This document shows, piece after piece, positions 20,214 to 36,757 of a DNA stretch of 64,000 nucleotides. Numbering within the stretch: the first letter of the stretch is position 1; each line of letters opens with the position of its first letter. The stretch is taken from contig NZ_CYRX01000031.1 in assembly GCF_001458315.1 (NCBI RefSeq), forward strand, positions 1 through 64,000, written 5' to 3'. The translations under genes were made by a program, and so were the position numbers. The notes beneath the pieces are model-generated. The model saw only the letters and a list, made by a program, of their open reading frames with translations, made no database searches and was not told where the DNA came from. This DNA comes from Thalassobacter stenotrophicus. GTDB lineage: Bacteria; Pseudomonadota; Alphaproteobacteria; Rhodobacterales; Rhodobacteraceae.

Positions 20214-20288
20214 TCCGGCGTAGCTCAGCGGTAGAGCAGTTGACTGTTAATCAATTGGTCGTAGGTTCGATCCCTACCGCCGGAGCCA
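20214..20288 (+). tRNA. tRNA-Asn (GTT)
   Basis: A complete cloverleaf is present: acceptor TCCGGCG pairs with CGCCGGA (20278-20284), the anticodon loop carries GTT, the T-arm contains GGTTCGATCC, and CCA is encoded at 20286-20288. The 3' 45 bp are duplicated at 36713-36757, so the gene is the integration site of the downstream element and remains intact after integration. Confidence 0.97.
20244..20288 (+). repeat. attL: 45-bp direct repeat within tRNA-Asn
   Basis: This stretch runs from the anticodon stem to the encoded CCA of tRNA-Asn and is identical to 36713-36757. It marks the left end of the integrated element. Confidence 0.95.
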
Positions 20289-20536
20289 AAAAATTCAACG
20301 GCGTCAATGGCTTAGACCATAGGCGCCGTTTTGGCTTTGTATAACAAAAAGTTATAAACAGTTATAAACCGGTCAAACGAAATTTTTATTGGCTTGCATG
20401 CATCGCCCCCCTTCATTGCTGACGTATCCCAACACTCATCTACTATGATGGGAGCAGAATCAAAAAACCTTGTAATTCTGTCTGCGTCTGCCAACCTATA
20501 ATAAGGAAAGAAAATGTTTAATTGGCAGCGAGTTAG

Positions 20537-22081
20537 ATGAGCGCAGACTTCAAACAAACACTATGGAAAGCAGCAGACAAGCTGCGGGCACAAATGGATG
20601 CTGCTGAGTACAAGCACATCCTCTTGGGGCTTATCTTCCTAAAGTACATTTCAGATACCTTTGTTAAGCAGCAGAACAAGATCCGAGAGATGGTGTCAGA
20701 CCCTAACTCGGATTACTTCATAAGCGAAGAACCCGCTGAGTACGCAGAAGAGCTGGAAGAGCGAGATTACTACACGCAGGACAACGTTTTCTGGGTACCT
20801 CAGGAGGCACGTTGGGAAGCGCTGAGAGCCAAGGCTAAACAGCCCGATATCGGTTCGATGATCGATAACGCCATGTCAGCGATCGAGAACGAGAACAACT
20901 CCCTTAGAGGCAAACTAGACAAACGGTTTGGTCGTGCACAGCTGAGTCAAGGCGTACTTGGCGAGTTGATCGACCTGATCTCGACCATTGGCTTCGCTGA
21001 CAAGTACAACTCGTCCGATCTCCTTGGCGAAGTCTATGAATACTTCCTTGGTCAGTTTGCATCAGCCGAAGGTAAGAAAGGCGGTCAGTTCTACACGCCA
21101 TCTCACGTGGTGAAGACGCTTGTCGCTGTGTTGTCACCTCATTCAGGGCGGGTCTATGATCCCTGCTGCGGCTCTGGCGGCATGTTTGTTCAGAGCGAAG
21201 AGTTCGTCAAAGCACATGGTGGTCGTGTTGATGACATTTCGATCTATGGTCAAGAAAGCAACCCAACCACTTGGCGCTTGGCAGCAATGAACCTAGCAAT
21301 TCGTGGGTTCTCGGCTGATCTTGGCAAAGAGCCTGCGGATACCTTTGCACGGGACCAATTTCCGGATCTCAAATTCGACTACATCATGGCGAACCCTCCG
21401 TTTAACATCTCGGACTGGGGCGGTGAGAAATACGAGGGCGACACACGTTGGAAGTTTGGTCGCCCGCCAATCGGAAATGCCAACTACGCATGGTTACAGC
21501 ACATGCTGTGGAAGTTGCGTCCGGGCGGTCAGGCAGGGGTCGTTCTTGCCAATGGCTCGATGAGTTCCAACACGGGTGGCGAAGGTCAGATACGAGAGGC
21601 AATGGTGCGAGGTGACGTTGTTGAGGTCATGGTCGCATTGCCCGGTCAGTTATTCCTGAACACTCAGATTCCAGTCTGTCTTTGGTTCCTAACCAACGAC
21701 AAGACTATGAACGGACGAGACCGCAGAGGTGAGACTCTGTTCATTGATGCACGGCAGTTGGGAACCATGGAGACCCGTGTTCTGAAGGTCTTCACGGATG
21801 AAGACATTTCAAAGATTCAAGAGACAGTGCAGTCTTGGAAAATAGGTGAAGAATATGAAGACATAGCGGGATTTTGTAAGTCAGCATCTTTGGATGAGAT
21901 TGAGAAAAGTGGGTTTGTCCTAACGCCCGGACGATATGTAGGTGCTGAGAAACATTTAGACGACTCTCTGTCTTTCAAAGACAAAATAAGTGGACTGTTG
22001 AGTGACTTTAAATCTTTGAAAGATGAATCATCACGCTTGGATCACCTGATCTTTGAGCAACTCAAGGTATTCGATCAATGA
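20537..22081 (+). CDS. hsdM: Type I restriction-modification methyltransferase subunit
   Basis: The 514-aa HsdM has the N-terminal HsdM domain (KQTLWKAADKLRAQMDAAEY), the SAM-binding motif DPCCGSGGMF near residue 207 and the adenine-N6 catalytic motif NPPF near residue 285 (YIMANPPFNISDWGG). With HsdS it methylates adenines in a split recognition sequence, and with HsdR it forms the restriction complex. It is the first gene of an hsdM-hsdS-hsdR operon with 4-bp and 1-bp overlaps. It starts about 250 bp inside attL. Confidence 0.96.
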   Translation: MSADFKQTLWKAADKLRAQMDAAEYKHILLGLIFLKYISDTFVKQQNKIREMVSDPNSDYFISEEPAEYAEELEERDYYTQDNVFWVPQEARWEALRAKAKQPDIGSMIDNAMSAIENENNSLRGKLDKRFGRAQLSQGVLGELIDLISTIGFADKYNSSDLLGEVYEYFLGQFASAEGKKGGQFYTPSHVVKTLVAVLSPHSGRVYDPCCGSGGMFVQSEEFVKAHGGRVDDISIYGQESNPTTWRLAAMNLAIRGFSADLGKEPADTFARDQFPDLKFDYIMANPPFNISDWGGEKYEGDTRWKFGRPPIGNANYAWLQHMLWKLRPGGQAGVVLANGSMSSNTGGEGQIREAMVRGDVVEVMVALPGQLFLNTQIPVCLWFLTNDKTMNGRDRRGETLFIDARQLGTMETRVLKVFTDEDISKIQETVQSWKIGEEYEDIAGFCKSASLDEIEKSGFVLTPGRYVGAEKHLDDSLSFKDKISGLLSDFKSLKDESSRLDHLIFEQLKVFDQ

Positions 22082-23379
22082 GTGACGGCGTCATGTTGCC
22101 TTTGGGTGCGATTTGCAGAAATGCCTCGAGACGCTTTGTCCCCCCCGAAGACGGAAAAGTCTGGTTTATTAATACTGGCGATGTTGAGGGTGGAAGGTTT
22201 ACTCACAACGATCTGAGCGATTGGGACGGTCTACCGGGGCAAGCGAAAAAGGCAGTTGTCGAAGGGGATATTCTTTACAGCGAAATTAGACCGGGTAATG
22301 GTCGTTATGCATTTGTAGAGCAGCAGTATCCAAATGCGGTTGTGTCCACGAAGTTCATGGTCATTGAGGCGGGCAAATCCATCCTACCCAAGTACCTATA
22401 CCACGTGATCACGTCACCCGAACTACAAAACGCAATGAAGTTGATCGCAGAATCACGCTCCGGAACGTTCCCCCAGATTACGTTTGACTCTATTGCTCAT
22501 TTGGAACTGATGGTTCCGTCCAAATCAGAGCAGTTGGCGGTTTCTTCTTTTTTAGATGCCATAGAAGGGCGCATTAGAAATAATCAAAAGATGAACCAAA
22601 CCCTTGAAGGGATAGCCAAAGCAATCTTCAAGTCATGGTTCGTGAACTTTGATCCTGTGCGAGCAAAGGCAGAGGGTCGCCCCACAGGTCTTCCCCCTGA
22701 GATTTGTGATCTGTTTCCTGCTGAATTGGTGGATTCAGAGATGGGGGAGACGCCGAGGGGGTGGGAAGTAAAAACCATTTCTGACCTTGCGGATTGCGTA
22801 GGCGGCGCCACCCCATCGACCAAGAACCCCGAGTTCTGGGAAGGTGGTAAACATACATGGACATCCCCCAAAGATTTGTCAGACTCAAAGACTATCCATC
22901 TTCTCAAGACAGACAGAAAAATTACCGAGGCAGGTCTGAAGAAAATCTCCTCTGGACTGTTACCCGTTGGAACAGTCCTTCTTTCCTCAAGAGCGCCAGT
23001 TGGGTACCTAGCACTAACAACCGAACCCACAGCGATAAACCAAGGTTACATCGCACTTAAACCAAAGAGTAGAATCTCAAATTATTTCTTACTCCACTGG
23101 TGCGAAACTAACCTTGATGAAATCAAAAACAGGGCATCTGGCACTACTTTCGCAGAAATTAGCAAGGCAGCGTTTCGCCCCATACCCGCTATCGAACCCA
23201 GCAACAGCGCAATGCAGAAATTCCACCAAATTGTATCGCCAATTTACGAGCGGGTATTAGTGGCATCAAAAGAAATGGAAACCCTCGCCGAACTCAGAGA
23301 CACACTCCTACCCAAACTCATCTCCGGTGAACTCCGCATACCTGATGTTGAGAAGTTCCTTGAAGAGGCGGGTATCTGA
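22078..23379 (+). CDS. hsdS: Type I restriction-modification specificity subunit
   Basis: The 433-aa HsdS has two target-recognition domains, about residues 1-175 and 225-400, separated by a conserved helical spacer KMNQTLEGIAKAIFKSWFVNF; the C-terminal spacer ends in AELRDTLLPKLISGELRI. The two domains each read one half of a bipartite DNA site, which cannot be predicted here. The start overlaps hsdM by 4 bp. No phase-variable repeat or inverted duplicate of a recognition domain is visible. Confidence 0.95.
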   Translation: MSDGVMLPLGAICRNASRRFVPPEDGKVWFINTGDVEGGRFTHNDLSDWDGLPGQAKKAVVEGDILYSEIRPGNGRYAFVEQQYPNAVVSTKFMVIEAGKSILPKYLYHVITSPELQNAMKLIAESRSGTFPQITFDSIAHLELMVPSKSEQLAVSSFLDAIEGRIRNNQKMNQTLEGIAKAIFKSWFVNFDPVRAKAEGRPTGLPPEICDLFPAELVDSEMGETPRGWEVKTISDLADCVGGATPSTKNPEFWEGGKHTWTSPKDLSDSKTIHLLKTDRKITEAGLKKISSGLLPVGTVLLSSRAPVGYLALTTEPTAINQGYIALKPKSRISNYFLLHWCETNLDEIKNRASGTTFAEISKAAFRPIPAIEPSNSAMQKFHQIVSPIYERVLVASKEMETLAELRDTLLPKLISGELRIPDVEKFLEEAGI

Positions 23380-26300
23380 TGGCGTTGGTATCCGAGGATC
23401 TTGTTGAGCAGCAGAGCATCGAGTGGTTCAAAGACCTCGGTTATACCTACGTTTGCGGATACGACATTGCACCAGATGGTGAAACGCCAGAGCGCCATGA
23501 CTATCGCTCTGTTATTCTCAAAGACCGTCTTCTTTCCGCTCTCACTCGGATCAACCCCGATATCCCAAAATCTGCGATCAACACAGCGCTTGCGCAGCTT
23601 GTAAACCCTAACATACCCGCCCTGATGTCCGCCAACAGGCAAGTTCATTCATGGCTGACCAAAGGGGTTAAAGTAACCTTCCATGAAGGCACCCAAGAGG
23701 TCGGAAGGCAACTCAAGGTCATTGATGTTGATAACCCAAGCAACAACGACTGGCTGGTCGTCAATCAATTCACGATCCACGGTCAAAAGCAGAATCGCCG
23801 ACCCGATGTTCTGGTTTTCGTCAATGGTCTGCCGCTGTCGGTGATCGAGCTAAAGAACGTTGCCGACGAAAACGCTGACATCTGGGCAGCCTATAATCAG
23901 CTTCAGACTTACAAGACGGATATTCCCGACCTCTTCAACTACAACACATGTATGGTGATCTCAGACGGGATCTTTGCACGGCTTGGCTCGCTCTCAGCCA
24001 ATGAAGAGCGGTTTATGAACTGGCGCACGATTGACGGCGTAGAGGTTGATCCGCTGGGTAAGCACCGAGAATTGGAAACCCTGATCAAGGGGCTTTTCAA
24101 CAAGGATGTCTTCCTCAACTACCTTCGGTACTTCTGCCTGTTTGAAGACGACAAGACCGTCATCAAGAAGATTGCAGGATATCACCAGTTCCACGCTGTC
24201 CAAGCTGCCGTGGAGAGCGTCGTGAAAGCGTCGTCTTGGGACGGCAACAAAAAGGGTGGCGTTGTCTGGCATACCCAAGGTGCGGGCAAGAGCATTGAAA
24301 TGGCTTGCCTAGCCGGACGCCTGATTGCCGACCCACGGCTGGAAAACCCGACTCTAGTAATGGTGACAGACCGACAAGATCTGGATGGTCAGCTGTTCGG
24401 CGTTTTTGCGGGTGCTGGCGACTTGTTGGGTGAAGCGCCTAAGCAAGCGAATTCACGGTCAGAACTACGAGACCACCTCCGCAACCGACCATCGGGTGGG
24501 ATAATTTTTACGACGATCCAGAAATTCGGGTTGGACGCTGACGAAGACAAATTTCCGGTCCTGTCTGATCGACACAACGTAGTCGTCATCGCCGACGAAG
24601 CACATAGGACGCAATACGGGTTTAAGGCGAAGATCGACGGTGAAACGGGTGTGATCAAATACGGTCTCGCCAAATCACTTCGTGATGCCTTGCCCAATGC
24701 CACGTTTCTTGCGTTTACGGGTACACCGATTTCGCAGGATGATCGAGATACACAGGCGGTCTTTGGCAACTATGTGTCGATCTATGACATCCAGCAGGCG
24801 GTCGAAGATGGTGCAACGGTTCCAATCTACTATGAGTCCCGGCTTGCGAAGATCAACCTGAACCAAGAAGCGCTACCAACCATCGATGACGAAGTCGAAG
24901 ACATTCTTGATAGCGAAACGGCAGATGAGCGTGAGAAAGAAAAAGCGAAGTCACAATGGTCCGCACTCGAAGCCATTGTTGGGACAGACGCACGCCTTCA
25001 AGAAATAGCTGAAGACCTGATTGCGCACTACGAGACCCGAAGCCAGACCCAACCGGGCAAGGCGATGATTGTCACCATGTCTCGTGACATTTGTGTTCGG
25101 CTCTACGACCAGATCATCAAGTTGAAGCCTGATTGGCACTCTGACGACCATATGCAGGGCGCAATTAAGGTAGTGATGACAGCCTCGGCGTCTGACAAGG
25201 CGTACCTACAGCCGCACCACACGAACAAAGCGCAGAAGAAGGACTTAGAGAAGCGGTTCAAAAACCCTGACGATCCTCTAAAGCTGGTGATTGTCCGTGA
25301 CATGTGGCTAACGGGCTTTGATGCCCCCTGCCTTGCAACGATGTATATCGACAAACCAATGCAGGGAGCGAACCTTGCGCAGGCTATTGCCCGAGTAAAC
25401 CGTGTTTTTAAGGACAAACCCGGTGGCTTGGTCGTCGACTACATTGGGATTGCGCCGCAGCTCAAGGAAGCCCTTGCGACCTACAGCGCCGCCAAGGGCA
25501 AGGGGCGTCCAACAATCGATAGCAGCGAGGCTTTGCGGATCTTAAAAGAGAAGATCCAAGTCGCCAGAGACATCCTCCACCCCGTTGATTGGTCCGAATT
25601 CCGAACAAAAGCTTTGGCGCTTATCCCTGACTGCATGGATCACGTTCTTGGACAGGAAGACGGCAAGCGCCGATATGCGGATACCGTGCTTCAGATGACC
25701 AAGGCTTTTGCTTTGTGTGGCACCCTTGATGAAGCGCTCGAACTATCACCAGAGGTTGCTTTCCATCAAGCTGTACGGGCACCGCTGATCAAAGGTGATA
25801 ATCCCGACAAGCCTCCTCGGGATGTAAAGTACGAACTACGCCAGTTGGTTTCACAAGCCGTGGTTGGTGAGGGTGTATCCGACATCTTCAAACTTGCGGG
25901 CTTGGATAGTCCTGACATTTCTATCCTATCCGAGGATTTCTTGTCGGAAGTCATGAAGATGCCGCACAAGAACCTGGCGGTGGAGCTGCTTCAAAAGCTC
26001 ATCAAAGACGAGATCAAATCGAAATTTAAAACTAACGTAGTCAAACAGCGAAAGTTCAGTGACCTGCTTCAAGCATCCCTTGGGAAGTATGCTAATAGAG
26101 CGATTGAGGCTGCACAGGTGATCGAAGAGCTAATCGCAATGGCGAAGGCGTTCCGAGAGGATCTAGCTCGGCGAGATAGCCACAATCTGAGTGACGAAGA
26201 AGAAGCTTTTTATGACGCTTTAGCCAAGAATGAATCTGCACAGCAGGCGATGGGTGAGGAAGTGCTCGTCGAGATGGCACGAGAAGTTGCCAAAAAGCTC

Positions 26301-26474
26301 AGAGAAAACCTAACAGTTGATTGGGCGGTTCGTGATAGCGTTCGTGCAAAACTCCGCATTGTTATCCGGACACTATTACGAAAGTACAAATATCCACCTG
26401 ATCAATCGAAAGATGCTGTAAAAATGGTTTTGCGGCAGGCTGAAGTTATTTCAGAGTTCGAAATGGCTTATTAG
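23379..26474 (+). CDS. hsdR: Type I restriction endonuclease subunit R
   Basis: The 1031-aa HsdR carries the PD-(D/E)xK nuclease site RPDVLVFVNGLPLSVIELKN (around residues 142-160), Walker A HTQGAGKS near 297, DEAH near 405, and helicase motifs such as FLAFTGTPI and ARVNRVFKDKPGG. It translocates DNA and cuts unmethylated DNA away from the site. All key residues are present, so the system appears intact. It overlaps hsdS by 1 bp and is followed after 1 bp by the heparin-lyase-like gene. Confidence 0.96.
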   Translation: MALVSEDLVEQQSIEWFKDLGYTYVCGYDIAPDGETPERHDYRSVILKDRLLSALTRINPDIPKSAINTALAQLVNPNIPALMSANRQVHSWLTKGVKVTFHEGTQEVGRQLKVIDVDNPSNNDWLVVNQFTIHGQKQNRRPDVLVFVNGLPLSVIELKNVADENADIWAAYNQLQTYKTDIPDLFNYNTCMVISDGIFARLGSLSANEERFMNWRTIDGVEVDPLGKHRELETLIKGLFNKDVFLNYLRYFCLFEDDKTVIKKIAGYHQFHAVQAAVESVVKASSWDGNKKGGVVWHTQGAGKSIEMACLAGRLIADPRLENPTLVMVTDRQDLDGQLFGVFAGAGDLLGEAPKQANSRSELRDHLRNRPSGGIIFTTIQKFGLDADEDKFPVLSDRHNVVVIADEAHRTQYGFKAKIDGETGVIKYGLAKSLRDALPNATFLAFTGTPISQDDRDTQAVFGNYVSIYDIQQAVEDGATVPIYYESRLAKINLNQEALPTIDDEVEDILDSETADEREKEKAKSQWSALEAIVGTDARLQEIAEDLIAHYETRSQTQPGKAMIVTMSRDICVRLYDQIIKLKPDWHSDDHMQGAIKVVMTASASDKAYLQPHHTNKAQKKDLEKRFKNPDDPLKLVIVRDMWLTGFDAPCLATMYIDKPMQGANLAQAIARVNRVFKDKPGGLVVDYIGIAPQLKEALATYSAAKGKGRPTIDSSEALRILKEKIQVARDILHPVDWSEFRTKALALIPDCMDHVLGQEDGKRRYADTVLQMTKAFALCGTLDEALELSPEVAFHQAVRAPLIKGDNPDKPPRDVKYELRQLVSQAVVGEGVSDIFKLAGLDSPDISILSEDFLSEVMKMPHKNLAVELLQKLIKDEIKSKFKTNVVKQRKFSDLLQASLGKYANRAIEAAQVIEELIAMAKAFREDLARRDSHNLSDEEEAFYDALAKNESAQQAMGEEVLVEMAREVAKKLRENLTVDWAVRDSVRAKLRIVIRTLLRKYKYPPDQSKDAVKMVLRQAEVISEFEMAY

Positions 26475-26475
26475 A

Positions 26476-27288
26476 ATGAAGCAGAAAATGTCTGATACAC
26501 ACGATACAAGTTATATAAAAATTAAAAGAACTCTTACCATCTCGGCTTTAATTTTCATCCTATCCTCACAGAGCACACTAGCTCAATCTTTTCGAGACAA
26601 GGACTGGAATGTAAACTTGTGGGCAAATTGCGGCATGCCAAAAAGAGTTAACGGTACGAAACCTGCTCGCATGGTCAAAATTGAAGGTGATAAAAAGCTA
26701 ATGTTTAGCCTTGAAAAGGGTCAGGTTGGACCCTGCTCAACAGACAATATGGAAAGACATTCTGCTCCATATTGGGAGCGTGCAGAAGTCAGACAGCGAG
26801 ATCACCTAAAACTGGGTAAGGCTTACAACATTAGTTTCGAAGCAACTTTTATGGAGGGCTTCAAGGGACGTCAGGAGACCTTTTTTCAAATACACGGCTG
26901 GAATGGTGATTGTCACGCATACCCGCCTGTTATGATGCATTTTAGTGGTGGTACCCTAAATATCTGGGCACTCAGGGGTGTAGATCAAGAGGCTGGCAAA
27001 GAGTGGATGAGCTCGTCGCAAGGAAGCCATCGTTCTGTTCAGAAACGTATTGTTAAAATCAACCAATTGATTGGACGAACGACACTTTTCGAAATCCAAT
27101 TTGACACCCGTAAAGGCGGTAATTTATCAGTCTATGTAAATGGCGAGCCAGTAGTGGAAAATACATCTGTAGAGTATGCATCATGCGCAAAGCCCCACAT
27201 GAAAATGGGCATTTACCGTCCGGGTGGCTCTAATAACAAAAAATCAGCAGTTATGTTCGACGATGTAAACGTGAGAGTCATCGAGTAA
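26476..27288 (+). CDS. Secreted heparin-lyase-like (polysaccharide lyase) protein
   Basis: The 270-aa protein has a signal peptide (IKIKRTLTISALIFILSSQS, then cleavage after LAQ) and a jelly-roll-type domain. YWERAEVRQRDHLKLGKAYN, ETFFQIHGW, PPVMMHFSGGTLNIWAL and a C-terminal MGIYRPGG block resemble the heparin lyase I-like Polysacc_lyase family. It would act outside the cytoplasm on an acidic polysaccharide; substrate and activity are unproven. Starts at 26476 or 26488 are possible. It follows hsdR after 1 bp, so it is probably in the same transcript, an odd partner for restriction genes. Base composition is AT-richer than hsdR. Confidence 0.65.
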   Translation: MKQKMSDTHDTSYIKIKRTLTISALIFILSSQSTLAQSFRDKDWNVNLWANCGMPKRVNGTKPARMVKIEGDKKLMFSLEKGQVGPCSTDNMERHSAPYWERAEVRQRDHLKLGKAYNISFEATFMEGFKGRQETFFQIHGWNGDCHAYPPVMMHFSGGTLNIWALRGVDQEAGKEWMSSSQGSHRSVQKRIVKINQLIGRTTLFEIQFDTRKGGNLSVYVNGEPVVENTSVEYASCAKPHMKMGIYRPGGSNNKKSAVMFDDVNVRVIE

Positions 27289-27408: not shown

Positions 27409-30111
27409 ATGCGCTTTTCACAGTCACAATTTGATCCAATCCACACAGGACGTGCTGACCCCAGCCGTTACCTAATCATTGGTTTTGACACCGAGTATCA
27501 GCGATATACTGACGAAGACACCCGCACCTTAAACAACGAAGTACTCAGCTATCAATACTGCTGTACCGCAATCGAACAGTACGGCGATGATACCTCTGCC
27601 CCAGTTTGGTCAGGGCTGTTGAAGCCCAAGGGTCCGAAGGTTGAGGACCGCCTTTCGCTTGAAGAGTTCCTGACATCTGTTTTTGAAGACGGCTGTACCC
27701 GCTTCCCTAACCTAAAGATACCAAGCACGATCTACCTTGTCGCCCACTTCACTCGGGCAGATGTGCCAGGCTTTGCTGATTTCAAAGACGAAGCGACCCG
27801 ATCAGCCCTAAAGCTGGACAATATTCGCAACCTGTTCATGAACGTTGCCAACGACATCAGGTTGGATCTTGGTGATCCAGGCTCAGGTGATCTCATCCCT
27901 ATCAGCGTTAAGATCCGAGATACGATGACCCTCGCCCCTGCTGGTGCAAAGAGCCTTGCAGCGATTGGTGACATCCTTGGCTTCGAGAAAATCGAGCTTG
28001 GCGCAACGCCGCAGGAAGAGCTGTCGATTAAGCAAAACATGAAGTCATTCATGGAGCGAGATTGGAACACGTTCCGAAAATACGCTATCCGAGACGCCGA
28101 AATTTGCACCCAATACACCCTCAAAATGATCCGGCTCTATCAGGAGCGCACAGGCAAGTTTCGTATGCCAGTGACGCTGACCTCCATTGGCGTCGACCTG
28201 ATCCGCCAGTTCTGGAAGGACCAAGGCGTCAACCCGCTTGAGATCGTCGGCAAAGAAGAGATCAAAGAGAAATACTGGAGCAAGCGCTTCGGGCGATACC
28301 AGACAAAGAAAAAGGTAACTTACCTCAAGAAGATCCATTGGTCGCTCGACTTTTTCACCGAATGCTACCACGGCGGACGCAACGAGCAATTTTGGTTCGG
28401 TCCAGCGTTTGACGGTGTCTGGTATGACTATGACCTGTCCAGCGCCTACCCATCGGCGATGGCATTGATCGGTCGCCCAGATTGGGACAAATGCCGTCCA
28501 ATTCGTGACACCGAAGAATTGATTAATTTTGGATCAGCCGAGTTGGCGTTTGCTAATGTCGACTTTGAATTCCCTGCTGATGTTGCTTATCCAGTGCTAC
28601 CAGTCAGAACCGAGAACGGTTTGATCTTCCCTCGCAAGGGCAACAGCACGACCCACGTCAGCGAGATTCTGTTGGCACATCGCCTTGGCGCAAAGATCAC
28701 TTTGATTGAGGGGCGTTTCATCCCCTCTGGGCGACATGGAAACTTCAAAGAAGGTATCGATCGTCCAATCCGCCCTTTTGATGGGTTTACCCGATACTGT
28801 ATTGAGCAGCGCAAGAGATTCCCCAAAAAGACGTTGAATAACCTGTTCTGGAAAGAGCTGGTTAACTCGACCTATGGGAAGACGGCACAGGGTCTTCGGG
28901 AACGGCGAATTTATGACCTACGGGATCAAGATACCAAGCCTCTTGCAGAAAGCCCGATCACCAATCCAGCCTATGCGGCTTTCATAACGGCATTTTGCCG
29001 AGGCGTGCTAGGCGAGATCATGAACGCCCTCCCCCGTGATGTTGCCATTTTTAACGTGACGACGGATGGCTTCTTGACGACGGCGACTGCCGAGCAAATG
29101 GCAACAGCATCACAGGGGACATTAGCAAAGTTTTATCGATCATCACGGCGTCTTCTCACAGATGTTCCCGCTGGAGAAGAAGACGTTTACGAAATCAAGC
29201 ACATCATCAGAAAGCCGCTTGGCTGGCGAACACGGGCTCAAGCCACTCTTGTCCCAAGCGAAATGTTAGACTGGCAAGACACGGGCATTACGCCTAAGGA
29301 AGACGAGCGTTATGTGCTTGCCAAAGGCGGTATCAAACTACCTGATCCAGCATCAAAGCCAGCCGAAAACAGTCAAATAATTGATCTGTTCTTCAATCGC
29401 CAACCAACAGACACCATGATGATGAAACTAGGTCTCGGTATTCGTGATATGTATGTACTCGGCGCAGACTTCGTGGATCGTGAGATGGAAAAAGTCCTCT
29501 CCATGGAATTCGACTGGAAAAGGCGACCAAGCAAGCCTGTCATGGCTGAAGGACAAGGCTACCGACACCTTCAATTTCAGACTGAACCTTGGGAGACCAT
29601 TGAGCAGTTTCAAAAGACTCGTCAGTTATGGGAGCAATACAATCTGTCGGAGCGGCATTGCCTGAAAACGGTCGAAGATCTGGAAGCCTTCGCCAGTTTT
29701 CATGAAAGCAGTTTGAGCACCGAAGGCGATGCCTCGAAATACCTGCGCAAGGATCAGGGCGACCTCAAACGGCTGCGTCAGGAGTTATTAATCGCATGGA
29801 AATTGCGCAAGGCTGGCACTCATGATCTGAAGCCACATGCCTTTGGCAGAAAGAGTATTTTCCCTACCTACAGGCTCAAGGCAAAGGAAATGGCGGAAAT
29901 TCTAAACGACGAGATAGGCGTTCCATGTACAAAAACCGATGTAGATAATGCTGCAAAGAAACCAGTCTTTACGCCCCACCGAGTACCAAGCACACAAGAC
30001 GTTCGCACGAAACTTACACGTATAAAACGAGACCTGTTTCCAAAGCTCGAAATCGCTGAATTCATTAGTGGCGATGCTGAATTTCTTCTTATAGCCGAAA
30101 ACAAAATTTAA
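27409..30111 (+). CDS. Family B DNA polymerase, primer-independent (piPolB) type
   Basis: The 900-aa protein has a 3'-5' exonuclease domain, with Exo I as FDTEYQ (Asp27, Glu29) and later blocks near KIRDTMTLAPAG and KYAIRDAEICTQYT. The polymerase core has motif A YDYDLSSAYPSAM (Asp342), motif B KELVNSTYGK (Lys482 to Tyr489) and motif C as TTDG (Asp553) instead of the usual DTD. About 345 residues follow motif C. Protein-primed family B polymerases share the core, but this length, TTDG motif, tRNA-bounded island and absence of a terminal-protein gene fit piPolB, which starts synthesis without a primer. Ribosome site is weak. It converges with the short recombinase gene after 22 bp. Classification is from motif memory, not a tree. 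Confidence 0.82.
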   Translation: MRFSQSQFDPIHTGRADPSRYLIIGFDTEYQRYTDEDTRTLNNEVLSYQYCCTAIEQYGDDTSAPVWSGLLKPKGPKVEDRLSLEEFLTSVFEDGCTRFPNLKIPSTIYLVAHFTRADVPGFADFKDEATRSALKLDNIRNLFMNVANDIRLDLGDPGSGDLIPISVKIRDTMTLAPAGAKSLAAIGDILGFEKIELGATPQEELSIKQNMKSFMERDWNTFRKYAIRDAEICTQYTLKMIRLYQERTGKFRMPVTLTSIGVDLIRQFWKDQGVNPLEIVGKEEIKEKYWSKRFGRYQTKKKVTYLKKIHWSLDFFTECYHGGRNEQFWFGPAFDGVWYDYDLSSAYPSAMALIGRPDWDKCRPIRDTEELINFGSAELAFANVDFEFPADVAYPVLPVRTENGLIFPRKGNSTTHVSEILLAHRLGAKITLIEGRFIPSGRHGNFKEGIDRPIRPFDGFTRYCIEQRKRFPKKTLNNLFWKELVNSTYGKTAQGLRERRIYDLRDQDTKPLAESPITNPAYAAFITAFCRGVLGEIMNALPRDVAIFNVTTDGFLTTATAEQMATASQGTLAKFYRSSRRLLTDVPAGEEDVYEIKHIIRKPLGWRTRAQATLVPSEMLDWQDTGITPKEDERYVLAKGGIKLPDPASKPAENSQIIDLFFNRQPTDTMMMKLGLGIRDMYVLGADFVDREMEKVLSMEFDWKRRPSKPVMAEGQGYRHLQFQTEPWETIEQFQKTRQLWEQYNLSERHCLKTVEDLEAFASFHESSLSTEGDASKYLRKDQGDLKRLRQELLIAWKLRKAGTHDLKPHAFGRKSIFPTYRLKAKEMAEILNDEIGVPCTKTDVDNAAKKPVFTPHRVPSTQDVRTKLTRIKRDLFPKLEIAEFISGDAEFLLIAENKI

Positions 30112-30133: not shown

Positions 30134-30733
30134 CTAGATCAGATCCACAATCTTCTGTCTCGCCTCACTATCACCTTCAATATAGCGTTGAGTGACCGCC
30201 AGTGAGGCATGCCCTGCCAGCATTTGTACATCACGTAACGACCCACCGACCGTGCTGATTTTACGAGCAGCGTTGGTGATAAATGTTCGTCGTCCACTAT
30301 GAGATGAGCAGCCCAGTAAACCTACGTCATTGTACCACCTCTTAAACATATTCACGACAGCCTGAGGCGATGTCTGAGCTGACCGTTCCGTAGTAATTAC
30401 ATAGGATTTTTCAAAATCAAACCCTCGACCCTGCTTGGCAACCTCTAACAGCTTCACCAAGTTAAGACGAAGTTGCTTGTTCAAGGGTATAACCCGTCCC
30501 GACCGACCCTTGGATGCATTATCTGTCAAATGAATTGCGTTACCGACTTCGCCCTCCGGTGTGAGGACCATCGCCCAGCGAAGGTTGGCGACCTCCTTTG
30601 CCCGTAGCCCTGCTCGTACAGACAGCAGAAAAACAGTTTGGTCACGAATACCATGTCGGCGTGTGAGGAGAAATGCAGTCAGTGAATCCACTTGACCCTT
30701 AGTCAGAATTTTTGCTTGTTTACCTAGAGCCAT
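30134..30733 (-). CDS. Short XerC/D-like tyrosine recombinase
   Basis: The 199-aa protein holds a complete tyrosine-recombinase catalytic domain: Arg in VRAGLRAKEVANLRW (near 43), Lys in ASKGRSGRVIPL, HSGRR (near 147), GHAS and the nucleophile Tyr in TQRYIEGD (near 182). The N-terminal core-binding domain of normal integrases is missing. It could be a helper recombinase for excision or dimer resolution of the element, or a captured XerC-like protein. It is the first minus-strand gene, reading toward the polymerase gene. Confidence 0.88.
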   Translation of the reverse strand: MALGKQAKILTKGQVDSLTAFLLTRRHGIRDQTVFLLSVRAGLRAKEVANLRWAMVLTPEGEVGNAIHLTDNASKGRSGRVIPLNKQLRLNLVKLLEVAKQGRGFDFEKSYVITTERSAQTSPQAVVNMFKRWYNDVGLLGCSSHSGRRTFITNAARKISTVGGSLRDVQMLAGHASLAVTQRYIEGDSEARQKIVDLI

Positions 30734-30969: not shown

Positions 30970-31497
30970 ATGACCTTCCAATATTCAGAAACTACCAAGA
31001 AATTAGACTTCGACATCATCATCGAAGATCAGAAAATATATTTTTCAGATTACCCCGATCAACCGATCTTTGAAAAAGGCATTCTTCCTGATGATTTCTG
31101 GGATCTTATGGAAATCAATTTTGAAAAATTATTTGATGATCTTCTTTGTAATTCAAAGGTACTCTCGATTTTGTATGGCTTATTAAAAGAAGAAAACGAA
31201 ACAGAATACTGCTCGGATACAGACATAAATGAAGTTATGGACCGATTTAACGAAATTACTGACCCGAATTTTATAACTCCGGAGGGTATGGAGTCTGCAA
31301 TCCAACTTGAAGCGCATGGGTTACATATTCAAATTAAAGGTTATGTTCACGAACCATGCTCGCTTGATAAATATTGGGATTACAAACAATCAAATCTATT
31401 GAAAGCGTGCTACAACCAAGGCTACGATATCGATCCTATGACCGGAGAGATAATCAATCACATCACAGGCGAGACGCTCCAGGAAAGTGAGATTTAG
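30970..31497 (+). CDS. Unknown acidic island protein
   Basis: The 175-aa protein has a strong ribosome site (AAAAGGAG, 6 bp before ATG). It is acidic, with two halves joined by a short loop and a C-terminal segment DPMTGEIINHITGETL that looks like a small repeated turn. No signal peptide or membrane segment. I do not recognise the family. Its end overlaps the convergent gene by 35 bp. Very AT-rich codon use. Confidence 0.6.
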   Translation: MTFQYSETTKKLDFDIIIEDQKIYFSDYPDQPIFEKGILPDDFWDLMEINFEKLFDDLLCNSKVLSILYGLLKEENETEYCSDTDINEVMDRFNEITDPNFITPEGMESAIQLEAHGLHIQIKGYVHEPCSLDKYWDYKQSNLLKACYNQGYDIDPMTGEIINHITGETLQESEI

Positions 31498-32161
31498 AAA
31501 CCGCTTCACAAACTGCATAACCTTTTTTCAAATACCTCCGCACTTGGCGAATTTGTCCTTCGTCATAGCGGAGGTTTCCTTTTTTATCAGGCATTGGATC
31601 GATTTGCAGTAAATAAGGCGTCCATTTGGATCTCGGTCGATCTTTTAGGCGATCTACCACCTCTGTGATAAATGCCGTATTAACAGCCGGCTTACCGAGC
31701 TCCTGCCAAATTCCATACATGAGCTGTATTTCATAAAGAACCTTACCTCGTATCTCCACGCCTTGCGTAAAACTGTATTTGCCAAACGCCGCACTCAAGG
31801 ACTTTACGGTCTCAGGATCTTGTCCTTGCTCTATCAGCTTGGCTCTTTGCTTATCTTCAATGAGCGCTTTGACATCTGACACTGACCTGGTTGCAGGCTG
31901 ATTTAGAGGTATTGCGACGTACATAACGTTGTCAGCAGCCGACACACTTTGCACTTCTTGCACATATGTAGTGCCAAATAGATGTTTGTGCTCTCTCCAC
32001 CAAGGATCGAACAACTGGTCACGAACGTCGCCCCACTGCTCATAGAACCCGTTTGAAGCAGCAAGACCAGCCTGCAAGTTTGGCTCCTTGTGCGCCATCT
32101 TTAGGAACTCGAACCAGAGTCGATACAACTGCTTGTTTGACTTGATTTTTGGCTGCTTCAT
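31463..32161 (-). CDS. Unknown island protein with Trp-rich N-terminus
   Basis: The product is 232 aa from ATG 32161 (TTG 32164 is a possible start; a GAGGA site lies upstream). The N-terminal part has LYRLWFEFLKMAHKEPNLQA and QWGDVRDQLFDPWWREHKHLF, followed by a basic helical C-terminus (RPRSKWTPYLLQID; GQIRQVRRYLKKGYAV). It could bind DNA, but no established domain is recognised. It is less AT-rich than the neighbouring orphans and is well conserved in codon pattern, suggesting real function in the element. Confidence 0.6.
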   Translation of the reverse strand: MKQPKIKSNKQLYRLWFEFLKMAHKEPNLQAGLAASNGFYEQWGDVRDQLFDPWWREHKHLFGTTYVQEVQSVSAADNVMYVAIPLNQPATRSVSDVKALIEDKQRAKLIEQGQDPETVKSLSAAFGKYSFTQGVEIRGKVLYEIQLMYGIWQELGKPAVNTAFITEVVDRLKDRPRSKWTPYLLQIDPMPDKKGNLRYDEGQIRQVRRYLKKGYAVCEAVSKSHFPGASRL

Positions 32162-32257
32162 CAAAATCCTCGGACAAATAAGGACCCTACCTTCGTCCTA
32201 ACTTATAAACTCTCAACTCGTACAATCAATTTACACAACAATCGAAAGGAAATATCA

Positions 32258-32566
32258 ATGAAACTATCCGACCTTTTAAAATTTGAACGCACACTAAATC
32301 GTCTCTCGTATTCTCATGAAATTGTACATTTCAATCGCAAACATTCGTACATGAATGATTTCAACGATGTGCCGTTTCCACACATAAAAAAGATTAAAAT
32401 AAAAGGTTCACAAGTTTCGACCCAAGTACATGGTTCATGTTGCTCTTGGAAAGAAATATTCCAAATTACAGACGAACTCATTCCAGAGCTTGAAAATCCG
32501 AATGAAATTTATCTTGAAGACATAGCATTGGACGGGAATATTCTGTTCGTTAGCCTCGGATCATAA
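32258..32566 (+). CDS. Small unknown island protein
   Basis: The 102-aa protein has AAAGGAAA upstream of ATG 32258. It is a soluble mixed alpha/beta sequence with a Cys-Cys pair in HGSCCSWKEIFQ. No family is recognised. It ends directly against the convergent gene at 32567. Confidence 0.5.
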   Translation: MKLSDLLKFERTLNRLSYSHEIVHFNRKHSYMNDFNDVPFPHIKKIKIKGSQVSTQVHGSCCSWKEIFQITDELIPELENPNEIYLEDIALDGNILFVSLGS

Positions 32567-32860
32567 TTACTTGAATGTCGCATTTGCTGTCACTTGAGCA
32601 GACACAGATCCAATCTGCCGCCGTTGAGCAACCAACCCATCCAATAAGTCAATTAACCCAATAACGACAGCATCGACCTTCTGGTCGGTGCTTTTTGCGT
32701 GTACGGCTGCCCTCAATGTCTGCTTGGCTTTGTTGTAAGATCGGACCGCATTATTGCCATGCTTTCGTCCTTGCAGAGCATAGGCAGCGACAGCACCTTT
32801 TTTGACAATGGCTTCCTCAAGCTGTTCCTGCTCTATCATAAACGTCTTGAAGCTTTTCAT
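32567..32860 (-). CDS. Small unknown protein (MKSFKTF start)
   Basis: The 97-aa helical protein begins MKSFKTFMIEQEQLEEAIVK, a start style common in small T4-like phage proteins, and is otherwise unrecognised. It overlaps the upstream gene by 4 bp (ATGA) with GAGG before its start, so it is the third gene of a translationally coupled trio with 32857-33045 and the ribbon-helix-helix gene. Confidence 0.6.
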   Translation of the reverse strand: MKSFKTFMIEQEQLEEAIVKKGAVAAYALQGRKHGNNAVRSYNKAKQTLRAAVHAKSTDQKVDAVVIGLIDLLDGLVAQRRQIGSVSAQVTANATFK

Positions 32861-33045
32861 GGCATCCTCAAGATGATGATTGAAACTTGTCCCGACTTAG
32901 CTGCCATGGCTTTAGCGGTTTTGGATAATGTATCAGCCATCGATAAATCATAAGGTTCAATCACTTCAATTTGGCTAATCCTGATCTTGTTCAAGTTCCT
33001 GATCAGCTCATGTTTGGTCTTCGGCATTGCAAGGCTAGATATCAT
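32857..33045 (-). CDS. Small unknown protein coupled to the RHH gene
   Basis: The 62-aa product starts at ATG 33045, which has GGAGG 5 bp upstream; an alternative in-frame ATG at 33057 lacks this. The sequence (MISSLAMPKTKHELIRNLNK and IRISQIEVIEPYDLSMADTL) is unrecognised. It overlaps the RHH gene by 11 bp and the next gene by 4 bp. Confidence 0.55.
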   Translation of the reverse strand: MISSLAMPKTKHELIRNLNKIRISQIEVIEPYDLSMADTLSKTAKAMAAKSGQVSIIILRMP

Positions 33046-33235
33046 CGTTACCTCCATCGCCGTAAAACCATCCTACAGGCTCATAAAGATCCTCTTTGGA
33101 CTGTTTAACAAAGTCTCTTATCATCCTATTCATTTCAGCTGTCATATTGGTCCTTAGCTGATGACAGGTTTCTTCAAATTGCATCTTGAGCCCTGATGGG
33201 ATCCTGAAATTCATCAGGAATACTTCTTGGTTCAT
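33035..33235 (-). CDS. Ribbon-helix-helix DNA-binding protein
   Basis: The 66-aa protein fits the Arc/CopG fold: a beta strand VFLMNFRIPSGL, helix KMQFEETCHQLR, turn TNMT and helix AEMNRMIRDFVKQS. Such proteins act as dimers that repress plasmid or phage promoters, or as antitoxins or excisionase-like factors. AAGGAG lies 6 bp upstream of ATG 33235. Its 5' side is the non-coding hairpin region at 33252-33362, a likely place for its operator. Confidence 0.75.
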   Translation of the reverse strand: MNQEVFLMNFRIPSGLKMQFEETCHQLRTNMTAEMNRMIRDFVKQSKEDLYEPVGWFYGDGGNDDI

Positions 33236-33377: not shown

Positions 33378-33773
33378 GACACACTTCACCTTCCGACAGG
33401 TGAGGTATGTCCAAAAAGCTTGTGTCTATCGCCTTCGTCCACATCCCATTAGAGCAACCCGATAAGTTCGGGAAAGGGCGGTTAGCCGGTCTCCTTTTAT
33501 GCTCCGCTTCATGCCAGCGGTATAATCGATCAGCCAATGGGACGACTTAGATCAATCATCGAAGGTTACAGTGTTGCAGCGCCTTCATCGTGACAGAAAT
33601 ATTTAAGCAGCCAATCCGCCTTTGCTGCATAATAATAAAAACTGGGTCCTAACTGAGATTATCCACACCCGGCTCCACTCAAGTTACTCGGTTGCTCAAC
33701 AGGTTTGACGTCCTCAATGTATGTAATGTCTTTGTCTGACATGTTTATTTATACAAGATACAACCAACCATAC
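33378..33773 (+). ncRNA. Candidate structured non-coding RNA or replication region
   Basis: This block is about 48% GC where flanking island DNA is near a third GC, and lacks a convincing gene. It begins with a long hairpin (33378-33412; GGACA pairs with TGTCC, TTCACCT with AGGTGAg, one C-A mismatch) and contains further short stems CCCGA/TCGGG (33458-33472), CCGCT/AGCGG, GAAGG/CCTTC and GCAGC/GCTGC. On the plus strand it ends at the strong terminator 33774-33807. A 47-codon frame starts at ATG 33408 inside the first hairpin and cannot be excluded. Strand and function are inferred. Confidence 0.35.
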
Positions 33774-33807
33774 AAAAAAAAGGCGGACAAAAGCCCGCCT
33801 TTTTTTC
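33774..33807. terminator. Bidirectional intrinsic terminator
   Basis: GGCGG (33782-33786) pairs with CCGCC (33795-33799), flanked by A8 on the left and T8 on the right. It can end plus-strand transcripts of the candidate RNA and minus-strand transcripts of the gene at 33823-34185. Confidence 0.85.
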
Positions 33808-33822
33808 AATTTATATTATAAT

Positions 33823-34185
33823 TTATCCAAACATTGCTTCATCAAAGAAATACTGTGCAAAGTTCTTACGATTATCGGCAATGATACTTTGATCGACATA
33901 GCTATCGGTTTGCGTAGGGATGATCGGAACTGATTTAGTGTGCCCCAAGAATAGCTCGTGATTGAAGCGAATGATATACTCATTAAACAACCACTCTTTG
34001 ATCTCAGCATATCGTTTATCTTGATTATCCTTCATATCTTCATACAATCCAGCCGGCATAAATTCTTGATGATCTTCAAGAATTTTTTCAGCACGTGTCT
34101 TCAATAAAGACAATACACTTTCAATCATAACACCCACTTGGGATTCAATTTCTCTGATCTCATTGACGATTACTTGATTATTCAT
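33823..34185 (-). CDS. Unknown island protein
   Basis: The 120-aa protein has AAAGGAATG before its ATG. It is helical, with an N-terminal IREIESQVGVMIESVLSLLK amphipathic segment, and mixed charge, without membrane segments or known motifs. A terminator follows immediately. Its strand and position suggest a separate short transcript. Confidence 0.55.
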   Translation of the reverse strand: MNNQVIVNEIREIESQVGVMIESVLSLLKTRAEKILEDHQEFMPAGLYEDMKDNQDKRYAEIKEWLFNEYIIRFNHELFLGHTKSVPIIPTQTDSYVDQSIIADNRKNFAQYFFDEAMFG

Positions 34186-34303
34186 TTTATCATTCCTTTT
34201 TTTTACTTTCTGATAAAATTAGAATAACTCAAATGAACTCATAAAATTAGGACAACAGTTCTCACAAGTATTACCCCTAAAAAAAACAAGATGATCATGT
34301 ATC

Positions 34304-35422
34304 TTACTTCGAACGTTGCGCCTTTTCCCAGTAAGGAAACATTGTTTCATAGAATCTTTCTATTTCGATGGAAAACCACTCAACCCTGGATTTTATAGAC
34401 TCGGGTTCATCCCAATTGCCAAATTTCTCAAGCTCAGCTTTGGATAATTCAAATTTAATTCTTGATGCCTTCTTTTCATCCAGCCGCTGCCACTCAAGTT
34501 CGTTATTAAATGCACTGTTGAGTTCTGAAGAAAATTGATCCATCGCATCGAAAAGTTGTTTGTCGGCATCATTATTAAAATAAAGCTCAACTCTCAGTGC
34601 ATTTCGCCCAATAACCATTCCAAATCGTCCACGCCCCTTGTTAAAGCCTAAATACCAACGTGGTTGTGCTTTGACGTTATCAAAGTAGTTGATCTGACGC
34701 TCTTTAAGTCGAGCCTTTACCATTTTCCAAAAATCTAAAAGATCTGCTTCAGTTTGAGCGACTACGGCGCTTTTGCCTTTGTCTTCCTTATCTTTTTCTC
34801 GAATATCAACAATAAATTCACTGATTTCTGGAACCGGTATAATTTGCTCAACCTGCAAAAATATATCATCATCAAGACTGAAAGGTTTTGCTCTGAAGCA
34901 TTGAACCTGAATATCATGGTCACGAAGCCATAAGACAGTTGATGTAACTTCTTTTCTAAAATTATTAGCAACTAAAATTATTCTTTGATCTTTACGATTT
35001 AGAACTAAGGATTCATCATCCTCTGTTTCTAAGAAATCTAGTATTGTTGTTTTTGCACTTACACCTGATGAACTACCATCCAGATAGTCCTGAAAAATTT
35101 TCACAATTTGAGAAGTTGATAATGTTGAGCAATATGAGACATATTTAAGTGACTGCCAAACCACATCACGCCCAGTATCATCTAACTTATTTTCAATTAT
35201 AACGAGGCTACCTTCTTTATCTAAAGCAAGTAAATCTAGGCGTTCGTTAGTTTGACTAAACCCATTAAATTCTTTTTGTAATATGAGGAGGTCTTCGCCC
35301 AGAACATCTGGATTTTTGGCAATCCATTCCTGCAAATGCTCTCTCTCACGAAAGCCAAGCTCGGAGAAAGAACATTCTTGAAGTTGAACAATATTATTCA
35401 AATTCCGTTTAATCTGATACAT
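34304..35422 (-). CDS. DUF4268 / PD-(D/E)xK nuclease-like protein
   Basis: The 372-aa protein has an N-terminal nuclease-like core: NERLDLLALDKEGSLVIIEN followed by K gives the D-x(n)-E-x-K arrangement (Asp near 62, Glu near 76), as in NucS-like and DUF91-like proteins. The C-terminal third fits DUF4268 (FNKGRGRFGMVIGRNALRVE; FSIEIERFYETMFPYWEKAQ). Such proteins occur near restriction and defense genes; the activity is unproven. It starts 3 bp after the integrase gene stop and is read in the same direction, so both may share a transcript. Confidence 0.75.
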   Translation of the reverse strand: MYQIKRNLNNIVQLQECSFSELGFREREHLQEWIAKNPDVLGEDLLILQKEFNGFSQTNERLDLLALDKEGSLVIIENKLDDTGRDVVWQSLKYVSYCSTLSTSQIVKIFQDYLDGSSSGVSAKTTILDFLETEDDESLVLNRKDQRIILVANNFRKEVTSTVLWLRDHDIQVQCFRAKPFSLDDDIFLQVEQIIPVPEISEFIVDIREKDKEDKGKSAVVAQTEADLLDFWKMVKARLKERQINYFDNVKAQPRWYLGFNKGRGRFGMVIGRNALRVELYFNNDADKQLFDAMDQFSSELNSAFNNELEWQRLDEKKASRIKFELSKAELEKFGNWDEPESIKSRVEWFSIEIERFYETMFPYWEKAQRSK

Positions 35423-35425
35423 AAG

Positions 35426-36631
35426 TTATTCTCCAAAGCTTTGCAGGTTCTTCGCCATCTCTTTTGATAGCGGTAAGAACCGAGCATAAAAACGTTCGAT
35501 CTGATCAACAGATGTCCCAGCGTTCTTCGCAAGATTAAAAATGTTCACCTTACCCTCACTGTTAATAATCCTCATACAAATCGCTGTATGGCGCAAGGAG
35601 TACAGCGTATGCGTTTTGCCTGTCGGTGTATCGGTCTGAAGCTCGCCGAACCTCAGCACCTCGGTAAATAATCTTTGAACCATTGCTGATGCCGTTGTTC
35701 GGTTGGTGTACTGTGGGTAGAAGATATAGTCTTCAGGTTTTGCATTCGGGTAACGCTTCTGAATGCGTTCGTAGACGGACACAGCAGCAGGCATCGTGTT
35801 AGCCCCCCTAAAACCAGTCTTGCCATCTCTAACGGTCACAATGAGCCGCTTAGGATCATCAGCAATAGTAACGTCACTGTGCTTGATTGCGTATAGCTCT
35901 GAAGAGATAGGTCGGACGAAAGAATGCGTCAGGAATAAGATCATATCATAGAATTCATCGGTTACCGCAAAGCCCCGGACGCTTACGCCCTCTTTCGTTG
36001 CTCGCTTCACCGTGGATAGGAGTTTTTGATAGTTATCATCCTCCTTTGCAACCAATGGGTGAAACCTAAAGAATGGTCGTGGGTTGTCCTTTGTTTTCAC
36101 CCTTGGTGTTTGCGGGACAACGTCGATCACGCCTTCATCTCTGGCGATCTTCATCACATTCCTAAACGCTGCCATCAGAGTGTTCTTAGTCGAAGCAGCT
36201 AAGTCAGTCCGTCGCTTAGTCAGATCGGCAACATATTCTTGGTAAGTATGGGTCCGGATCTGCCTTACATCACGATCGCCAAAAAAGCGGACCAAGCCCC
36301 AATCTTCATTCTGGACCGCCCAATGCAATGCTTTGATGTAGCCTTGGCTACGTTCACCCGTCTGAGACTGAAGCCTCGACCTGTGCAGCAGCTTGAGAGC
36401 AAAATGGCTAAAGGTGTATTCACGCTCAACGGGCTTTTCGGACTTCAACAATGATAGAGCAAGTTCCTGTGCTACCTCCCTCGCCCGTATAACCGTGTCT
36501 TCACCAGTTGACTTAACCAGGTATTTCTTGGTCTTCTTATCCCAAACACGAACATACCACTTGGCTGAACGCTCAACACGATAAAGGGATAAGCCTTTGT
36601 AAAGCTTGATAGCTGAAGGTGCTTTAGACAT
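35426..36631 (-). CDS. int: Tyrosine-type integrase of the element
   Basis: The 401-aa protein has an N-terminal DNA-binding part, a SAM-like core-binding region (about 60-200), and a catalytic domain with Arg in FVRPISSELYA (near 242), Lys in VRDGKTGFRG, the SLRHTAI box (near 346) and Tyr in IERFYARFLP (near 380). It starts 82 bp from attR, as expected for the enzyme that recombines the tRNA-Asn repeats. The domain is full length, unlike the short recombinase at 30134. Codon use matches the island. Confidence 0.93.
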   Translation of the reverse strand: MSKAPSAIKLYKGLSLYRVERSAKWYVRVWDKKTKKYLVKSTGEDTVIRAREVAQELALSLLKSEKPVEREYTFSHFALKLLHRSRLQSQTGERSQGYIKALHWAVQNEDWGLVRFFGDRDVRQIRTHTYQEYVADLTKRRTDLAASTKNTLMAAFRNVMKIARDEGVIDVVPQTPRVKTKDNPRPFFRFHPLVAKEDDNYQKLLSTVKRATKEGVSVRGFAVTDEFYDMILFLTHSFVRPISSELYAIKHSDVTIADDPKRLIVTVRDGKTGFRGANTMPAAVSVYERIQKRYPNAKPEDYIFYPQYTNRTTASAMVQRLFTEVLRFGELQTDTPTGKTHTLYSLRHTAICMRIINSEGKVNIFNLAKNAGTSVDQIERFYARFLPLSKEMAKNLQSFGE

Positions 36632-36712
36632 TATTAAAAGCCAAAATCAAAGTTATATACCCTACCTATAAACTATATCCTAAGCCATTGACATTATTAA
36701 ACACCAAGATAC

Positions 36713-36757
36713 CTGTTAATCAATTGGTCGTAGGTTCGATCCCTACCGCCGGAGCCA
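36713..36757 (+). repeat. attR: 45-bp direct repeat of tRNA-Asn 3' end
   Basis: Identical to 20244-20288 and includes the T-arm and encoded CCA. Bases on either side differ from the tRNA locus (TAAAAT follows here, AAAAAA there), so the repeat length is exactly 45 bp. It marks the right end of the element. Confidence 0.95.

Follow-up and report, generated by a model that had tools for sequence, protein, structure and literature searches.

The stretch of DNA considered here (the window) comprises positions 1 to 64,000 of contig NZ_CYRX01000031.1 from Thalassobacter stenotrophicus, and contains an island which is probably a pipolin, an intact-looking integrative mobile element inserted at a tRNA-Asn gene. 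PMC9710591 and PMC7385651, in the parts that treat their general features, define pipolins by a single gene, piPolB, for a primer-independent family B DNA polymerase (PolB); pipolins often have att repeats overlapping a tRNA gene together with tyrosine recombinases. The island has a polymerase of the piPolB clade, att repeats overlapping a tRNA gene, and two tyrosine recombinases. Below, L and G numbers denote loci and genomes of this analysis.

The left boundary is an intact tRNA-Asn(GTT) gene, called by ARAGORN at 20214–20288 on the plus strand. Its 3' half, from the anticodon loop to the 3' end (left att copy, 20244–20288), is repeated on the same strand at 36713–36757, where it stands alone as the right att copy. 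The repeat is exact over 45 bp and 98% identical over 51 bp. In the whole genome (3.59 Mb, 33 contigs) the 45-mer occurs exactly twice when up to three mismatches are allowed, and the target is the only tRNA-Asn gene of the genome with such a sequence. Between the 3' end of the tRNA and the outer edge of the right att copy the element measures 16,469 bp, with a G+C content of 45.8% as against 58.6% and 59.6% in the flanks. Imperfect 20-bp inverted repeats (20303–20322 and 36673–36692) lie immediately inside both att copies. The perfect repeat pair, an integrase by the right end, a 900-residue family B polymerase and a block of type I restriction and lyase genes had all been proposed in the initial annotation, and all are confirmed by the searches described here.

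A search of related genomes for an empty tRNA-Asn site, suggested in the same annotation, yielded one in another genus, the window's own genus being represented by one genome: in G011 the 45-mer occurs once in the genome, beside a gene for a metallo-beta-lactamase-fold protein. The corresponding gene lies to the left of the tRNA in the window and is present in 171 of 198 genomes (E≤1e-60). Thirty of these loci were read, counting the window's, and 28 have tRNA-Asn directly downstream; loci with flanks of 1.5 kb or less cannot exclude elements at other such sites. For the TPR-protein flank, a search of 81 genomes listed, apart from the window's own, weak repeat matches.

The integrase (35426–36631, minus strand, 401 amino acids) falls below Pfam cut-offs and matches the PHROG integrase family phrog_1 at 1.8e-19. 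The residues R240, K271, Y344, R347, T373 and Y382 can be identified; histidine is usual at the positions of Y344 and T373, which are also present in relatives of this integrase. The second recombinase (30134–30733, minus strand, 199 amino acids), missed by the initial annotation, matches PF00589 at 8.9e-22 and phrog_216 at 1.9e-32. It is encoded immediately downstream of the polymerase gene and its six catalytic residues are complete (R44, K75, H145, R148, H175, Y184). The open frame is of only 205 codons' worth of protein and therefore has no room for an N-terminal domain, leaving a catalytic domain only.

Pfam scans covered 16 open reading frames (ORFs) of the element, and PHROGs and NCBIfam scans covered ten. 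Across the three collections no relaxase or conjugation gene was recognised, so that the element does not qualify as an integrative and conjugative element. Nor was a uracil-DNA glycosylase or an excisionase recognised in them, although a small excisionase could escape such scans, and the Pfam and PHROGs scans revealed no capsid gene. The repeats in the 30.1–36.8 kb region include no convincing iteron array.

The polymerase and its phylogenetic position

The polymerase gene (27409–30111, plus strand) encodes 900 amino acids and matches PF03175 at 1.6e-10. The exonuclease residues D27 and E29, the motif A residue D342 and a motif C reading TTDGF at 551–555 can be recognised. There is no match in NCBIfam, and the single sequence finds none in the PDB, where a profile reaches only E=0.3. 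The PDB fold nearest to an AlphaFold2 model (mean pLDDT 86.6, pTM 0.82) is that of phi29 polymerase (2pyj, E 1.3e-14, TM 0.65 by target length), as expected for the superfamily. Searches with tblastn matched 46 of 72,556 plasmid records (from Pseudosulfitobacter, Staphylococcus, Fusobacterium and Helicobacter) and, weakly, six of 50,697 phage records.

A maximum likelihood tree was computed for 29 polymerases over 905 columns, comprising 23 piPolB-type rows and six phage or virus rows (phi29, PRD1, Cp-1, His1, a Microbacterium tectivirus and an archaeal virus), which we take to be protein-primed throughout. The two sets are divided with support of 100/97, the piPolB side including the pipolin-type polymerases of E. 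coli, Staphylococcus and Lactobacillus. The phylogeny proposed in the initial annotation as a check thus upholds its pipolin reading, since the window polymerase groups with the piPolB-type rows and not firmly with the protein-primed ones. It falls within a 13-row Rhodobacteraceae-type clade (12 others; 100/100), where it pairs with the polymerase of L002 (89/96); the E. coli rows attach at 84/80. A constraint uniting the Rhodobacteraceae clade with the six phage and virus rows costs 25.3 log units and is rejected by the approximately unbiased (AU) test (p-AU 0.0104).

Motif C reads TTDGF in all 18 Rhodobacteraceae-type rows of a separate motif comparison, the window's included, and CDTDS in phi29 and PRD1. 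A lysine, K597 in the window, is found in 23 of 23 piPolB-type rows, its column being occupied by glutamate in five of the six others and by a gap in one; this lysine parts the piPolB-type from the other rows better than motif C. In the E. coli polymerase L093 the exonuclease residues are D59 and E61 and the motif A residue is D368, presumably those mutated in the published enzyme. According to the portion of PMC7544198 concerned with motif C, its first aspartate is missing from primer-independent PolBs, as it is from the window polymerase. At the level of sequence, membership of the window polymerase in the piPolB clade is supported, and primer independence is a prediction.

A second, distant piPolB-like lineage (25–26% identity) occurs in Roseobacter-type genomes, represented by L024 on Pseudosulfitobacter plasmid p4 and by L086 in G792. 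The p4 gene (L024:14608-20152) is interrupted by an IS66 insertion and has a relaxase gene downstream. In addition, an IMG/VR contig classed as viral (L073) encodes a PolB 43% identical to that of the window and may in fact represent a pipolin.

Relatives within and outside the Rhodobacteraceae

A scan of genome contigs for relatives of the polymerase gave ten loci, and ten of 394 genomes of the family, the window's own included, have a match. Profile A1 matched in three of 398 genomes of the phylum, again including the window's own, and the E. coli polymerases were reached through a relative in a different family of this phylum (L085, G668). Nineteen Rhodobacteraceae-type PolB loci, each counted once and with G335 (38 residues) left out, were compared. 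PolB is common to all by construction because the loci were fetched by it; the next most shared gene is that for the integrase, followed by a resolvase cluster. An integrase of the window's cluster is present in 15 of the 19. Two of the remaining four (G045, G223) have integrases akin to the window's (94.5% and 62% identical) beside a tRNA-Asn att copy, integrase and PolB lying on separate contigs in G223, and the other two (G178, G237) are cut by contig ends. The clade of Rhodobacteraceae pipolins that includes the window element uses tRNA-Phe, tRNA-Asn, tRNA-Arg and, in L002, tRNA-Lys.

Both att copies are on one contig in nine tRNA-Phe elements (L006, L009, L029, G200, G800, G801, G804, G805, G806), which span 12.0–25.8 kb; G800 has three tRNA-Phe att copies, forming a tandem array (G800:C15 19385-61457; L079–L081). 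In this array a PolB-less type I restriction element sits beside a PolB element. The tRNA-Phe pipolins share with the window the polymerase clade, a homologous integrase (36–38% identical) and, in several cases, defence cargo; arm-site spacing is like the window's in the three compared (L006, L009, L029). They differ in the tRNA used, and most possess a serine resolvase of one cluster; the window and L002 have no member of that cluster and carry the 199-residue tyrosine recombinase in its place. The resolvase cluster has 12 members in 11 element sets, and all three members scanned match PF00239. Ten of the 11 sets adjoin a tRNA-Phe att; the locus of L005 has no tRNA, but tRNA-Phe att copies are present in its genome. 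No member of the cluster was found in G326, G178 or G237, and neither recombinase type was seen in the short contigs L028 and L032. From the company they keep, the 199-residue recombinases are proposed to act as multimer resolvases.

The contig L002 is 8,837 bp long with an exact 77-bp end overlap, as a circular molecule of 8,760 bp would show. It encodes a PolB (64% identical to the window's), an integrase (68%), a 199-residue recombinase (68%) and the 97- and 66-residue proteins. Its att-like core resembles the 3' half of tRNA-Lys(TTT), beginning in the anticodon loop (anticodon assigned by eye); a whole tRNA was searched for in the contig and not found. L002 is filed under a Flavobacteriaceae metagenome-assembled genome, and the tRNA-Lys att gives no host assignment, its best matches being plasmids of Bacillota (95.5%) and enterobacteria (91%). 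L002 suggests a circular form, for which it is the best evidence, and a small working gene set. Its cargo includes a flagellin gene (L002:2645-4537; Flagellin_N 5e-37, Flagellin_C 7.8e-19).

The 199-residue recombinase has relatives in 25 of 394 genomes of the family, the window's own included (E≤1e-20). Seven places with a recombinase 54–84% identical were fetched, of which a 3.5-kb contig, L114, was left out of the classification. Rep is found in L113, L116 and L117, and in G045 within the stretch between att copies that includes L115; L118 encodes an AAA_25 protein together with a MobA/MobL relaxase, and the ORFs scanned in L112 contained no recognisable replication gene. Homologues of the window's integrase are present in L112 (26%), L113 (63%), L116 (38%) and G045 (94.5%), and none was found in L114, L117 or L118. 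The Rep proteins belong to Pfam REP_ORF2-G2P, above the cut-off in L113 and L116 and below it in L117 and G045 (26.3 versus 27.8 bits); three show an H-Y-H stretch, presumably of HUH type. PolB and Rep are not strictly exclusive, since both occur in L029 and, weakly, in L032. One very compact arrangement is a tRNA-Thr element of about 4.7 kb (L113:6332-11047), with an integrase, an HUH-type Rep and a 199-residue recombinase; integrase and recombinase are 63% and 80% identical to those of the window, and no intact PolB is present.

G045, from another genus, has the tRNA-Asn 45-mer three times on one contig, two copies bounding a stretch of about 53 kb. This encodes an integrase 94.5% identical to that of the window, a 199-residue recombinase (59%), a relative of the 233-residue protein (39%), Rep, and a C-terminal PolB remnant (82% over 126 residues). 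HsdM and HsdR are 89% identical, while HsdS is only 39% identical (L119 16635-17839 versus window 22078-23379). The two chromosomal comparisons made gave 85% for DAHP synthase and 46% for a tRNA-Asn-adjacent gene. These identities are best read as lateral movement of a common chassis with a swapped restriction specificity.

The att copies are flanked by sites that may be arm sites of the integrase. The right-hand attP arm of the window (20303–20370, plus strand) contains one partner of the inverted repeat and a pair of TTATAAAC sites, whose offsets from the att core are +63 and +73; the left-hand arm (36650–36712, plus strand) contains the other partner and degenerate copies of the motif at about −60 and −47. 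The motif TTAT[AG][ACG]AC was counted on both strands in the two flanks of eight attP regions. Two to four sites per 240 bp are found in seven of the eight, compared with 0.07–0.14 in shuffles and 0.08 in the element interior; the counts lean towards the motif because it was written after most stretches had been seen. A right-arm site is at +73 in six regions and at +63 to +65 in five, and a left-arm site is at −56 to −60 in six and at −47 in two (L002, G045).

A match to piPolB is present in 299 of 5,426 complete E. coli genomes, above the 1.1% (25/2,238) of a strain collection given in the relevant part of PMC7385651. Both E. coli pipolins fetched (NZ_AP038238.1, NZ_CP041442.1) lie beside tRNA-Leu, in line with what that part of PMC7385651 describes. 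Like the window element they have a piPolB-clade polymerase, a tRNA-adjacent site, two tyrosine-type recombinases and type I restriction cargo. The window element differs in its tRNA-Asn site, in a second recombinase with a catalytic domain only, and in an integrase not detectably related to their tRNA-proximal one; the uracil-DNA glycosylase and excisionase of E. coli type, common but not defining, were not recognised in it. The plasmids pSE-12228-03 of S. epidermidis and pLME300 of L. fermentum, which we take to be those meant for these pipolin species, encode, on circular replicons, polymerases with the TTDG motif C of the window, and in pSE-12228-03 a recombinase gene lies near the polymerase gene, as in the window. 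These plasmid pipolins carry a relaxase, with no integrase listed in the stretch shown, whereas the window element carries an integrase and no recognised relaxase. The two species are named as pipolin hosts in the part of PMC9710591 concerned with them.

Readings of the element and its accompanying genes

The pipolin reading is supported: the polymerase clade, motif C, the att pair and the integrase all agreed with it when tested. On this reading the 401-residue integrase would bind the arm sites and recombine the two att copies. Excision would give a circle joined from 36757 to 20289 and leave the tRNA whole; the piPolB-type polymerase would copy this circle with no separate primase, and the 199-residue recombinase would resolve circle multimers, as the serine resolvase would in the tRNA-Phe relatives. 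Cell-to-cell transfer would presumably need help because no relaxase or conjugation gene was recognised.

Several observations weigh against this reading. No excised circle of the window element itself was seen, and a tandem array, as in G800 and G045, could also give the overlap of L002. Motif C alone is not decisive because its first aspartate is likewise missing from two of the six protein-primed-type rows, those of His1 and the Microbacterium phage. The five rows labelled as known piPolBs do not form one clade without other rows. Long branches lead to ten rows, and the program issued warnings for three joins between such branches, the Microbacterium phage, adjacent to the piPolB side, being among them; the deepest branching order is therefore unsure. 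The integrase has no match at E≤1 to the tRNA-proximal integrase of E. coli pipolins, whose other recombinase it matches over 68 residues only (E 0.001). The left arm of the window has no site fitting the motif, its degenerate copies being recognised by eye only, and the attP region of L112 at tRNA-Arg has none at all. PolB is truncated or split in L011, G326 and G045, and the polymerase is not needed for integration, since elements with a homologous integrase and no intact PolB exist.

The last two points would also suit an island which moves by its integrase alone and carries the polymerase as cargo for repair, damage tolerance or defence, as would the presence of integrase and 199-residue recombinase with no intact PolB in L112, L113, L116 and G045. 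The role of piPolB in pipolins is called unclear in the part of PMC9710591 that addresses it, damage tolerance and repair being mentioned. However, places with no intact PolB often have another replication-type gene (Rep in L113, L116, L117 and G045, AAA_25 with MobA/MobL in L118), an indication that PolB occupies a slot for replication, and a serine resolvase or 199-residue recombinase accompanies PolB in many elements. The slot argument is weakened by the joint presence of PolB and Rep in L029 and, weakly, L032; even so, a cargo polymerase seems unlikely. A former pipolin now immobile is a little less probable again: several relatives are degraded and the genus is represented by one genome, yet the att copies are perfect, the genes for PolB and both recombinases are open, and catalytic residues are complete (199-residue recombinase) or as in relatives (integrase). 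An integrated protein-primed linear plasmid or phage, which the phi29 fold and the imperfect inverted repeats might recall, is very improbable in view of the tree and AU test placing the polymerase outside the protein-primed clade, a motif C unlike the CDTDS of phi29 and PRD1, the failure to recognise a capsid gene among the ORFs scanned, the position of the inverted repeats within the attP arm region and the circular appearance of L002.

Going further than the pipolin reading itself, the Rhodobacteraceae clade has an integrase and an att design of its own, the resolvase type has changed, and in some elements Rep stands in the place of piPolB. It is possible, if still tentative, that one chassis (integrase and 199-residue recombinase, similar attP arms, often the 97- and 66-residue genes) takes up exchangeable replication modules, these being piPolB in the window and L002 and a small HUH-type Rep elsewhere, once (G045) with a piPolB remnant. 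If so, piPolB would be a swappable self-replication cassette and the 199-residue recombinase a replacement for the serine resolvase. The window and G045 elements are comparable, share a tRNA target and have integrases 94.5% identical; as one carries piPolB and the other Rep and a piPolB remnant, they offer a good place to ask what piPolB is for, and whether it is a replicase.

The initial annotation also called the content of the element unfamiliar. Alphaproteobacterial pipolins are already pictured in PMC9710591, at least in its Fig. 3, so that such content is no evidence of a new kind, and type I restriction cargo is ordinary, both E. coli pipolins fetched having it. A literature search of partial coverage found no paper pairing pipolins with Rhodobacterales or Roseobacter; absence from print is not claimed.

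The restriction block, on the plus strand, consists of hsdM (20537–22081, PF02384 2e-105), hsdS (22078–23379, PF01420 3.4e-35) and hsdR (23379–26474, from Pfam and PADLOC scans), followed by a polysaccharide lyase family gene (26476–27288, PF14099 2.5e-15). On the minus strand a PDC-S11 candidate defence protein, combining a NucS-like nuclease with DUF4268 (34304–35422, PADLOC 5.5e-134 and Pfam), is a further addition to the initial annotation. With these genes the host would acquire type I restriction as well as the PDC-S11 candidate. Seven of nine large cargo proteins of relatives, picked by size, have PADLOC matches, to type IIG/I restriction, Lamassu LmuA/LmuB, Hachiman HamB, DRT8 and PDC-S37, and the hsdMSR genes and PDC-S11 fit this group because defence cargo is common there.

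The remaining genes are small. Orphan ORFs of 175 (30970–31497, plus) and 102 residues (32258–32566, plus) have no Pfam match, and one of 120 residues (33823–34185, minus) matches DUF2714 under the cut-off; profile alignment of the orphan genes with four conserved clusters of relatives gave no match. On the minus strand lie the genes for the 233-residue protein (31463–32164), to which no function is assigned and whose relative (39%) is in the G045 tRNA-Asn island, for a 97-residue protein (32567–32860) whose relatives adjoin the 199-residue recombinase in L002, L112 and L113, and for two proteins of 66 residues, one (32857–33057) with relatives in L002 and L112 and the other (33035–33235), which resembles a ribbon-helix-helix protein by eye only and has no Pfam match, with relatives in L112 and L117. 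At the far left of the window, positions 1–2000 have a G+C content of 38.5–38.8%, perhaps marking the border of another island.

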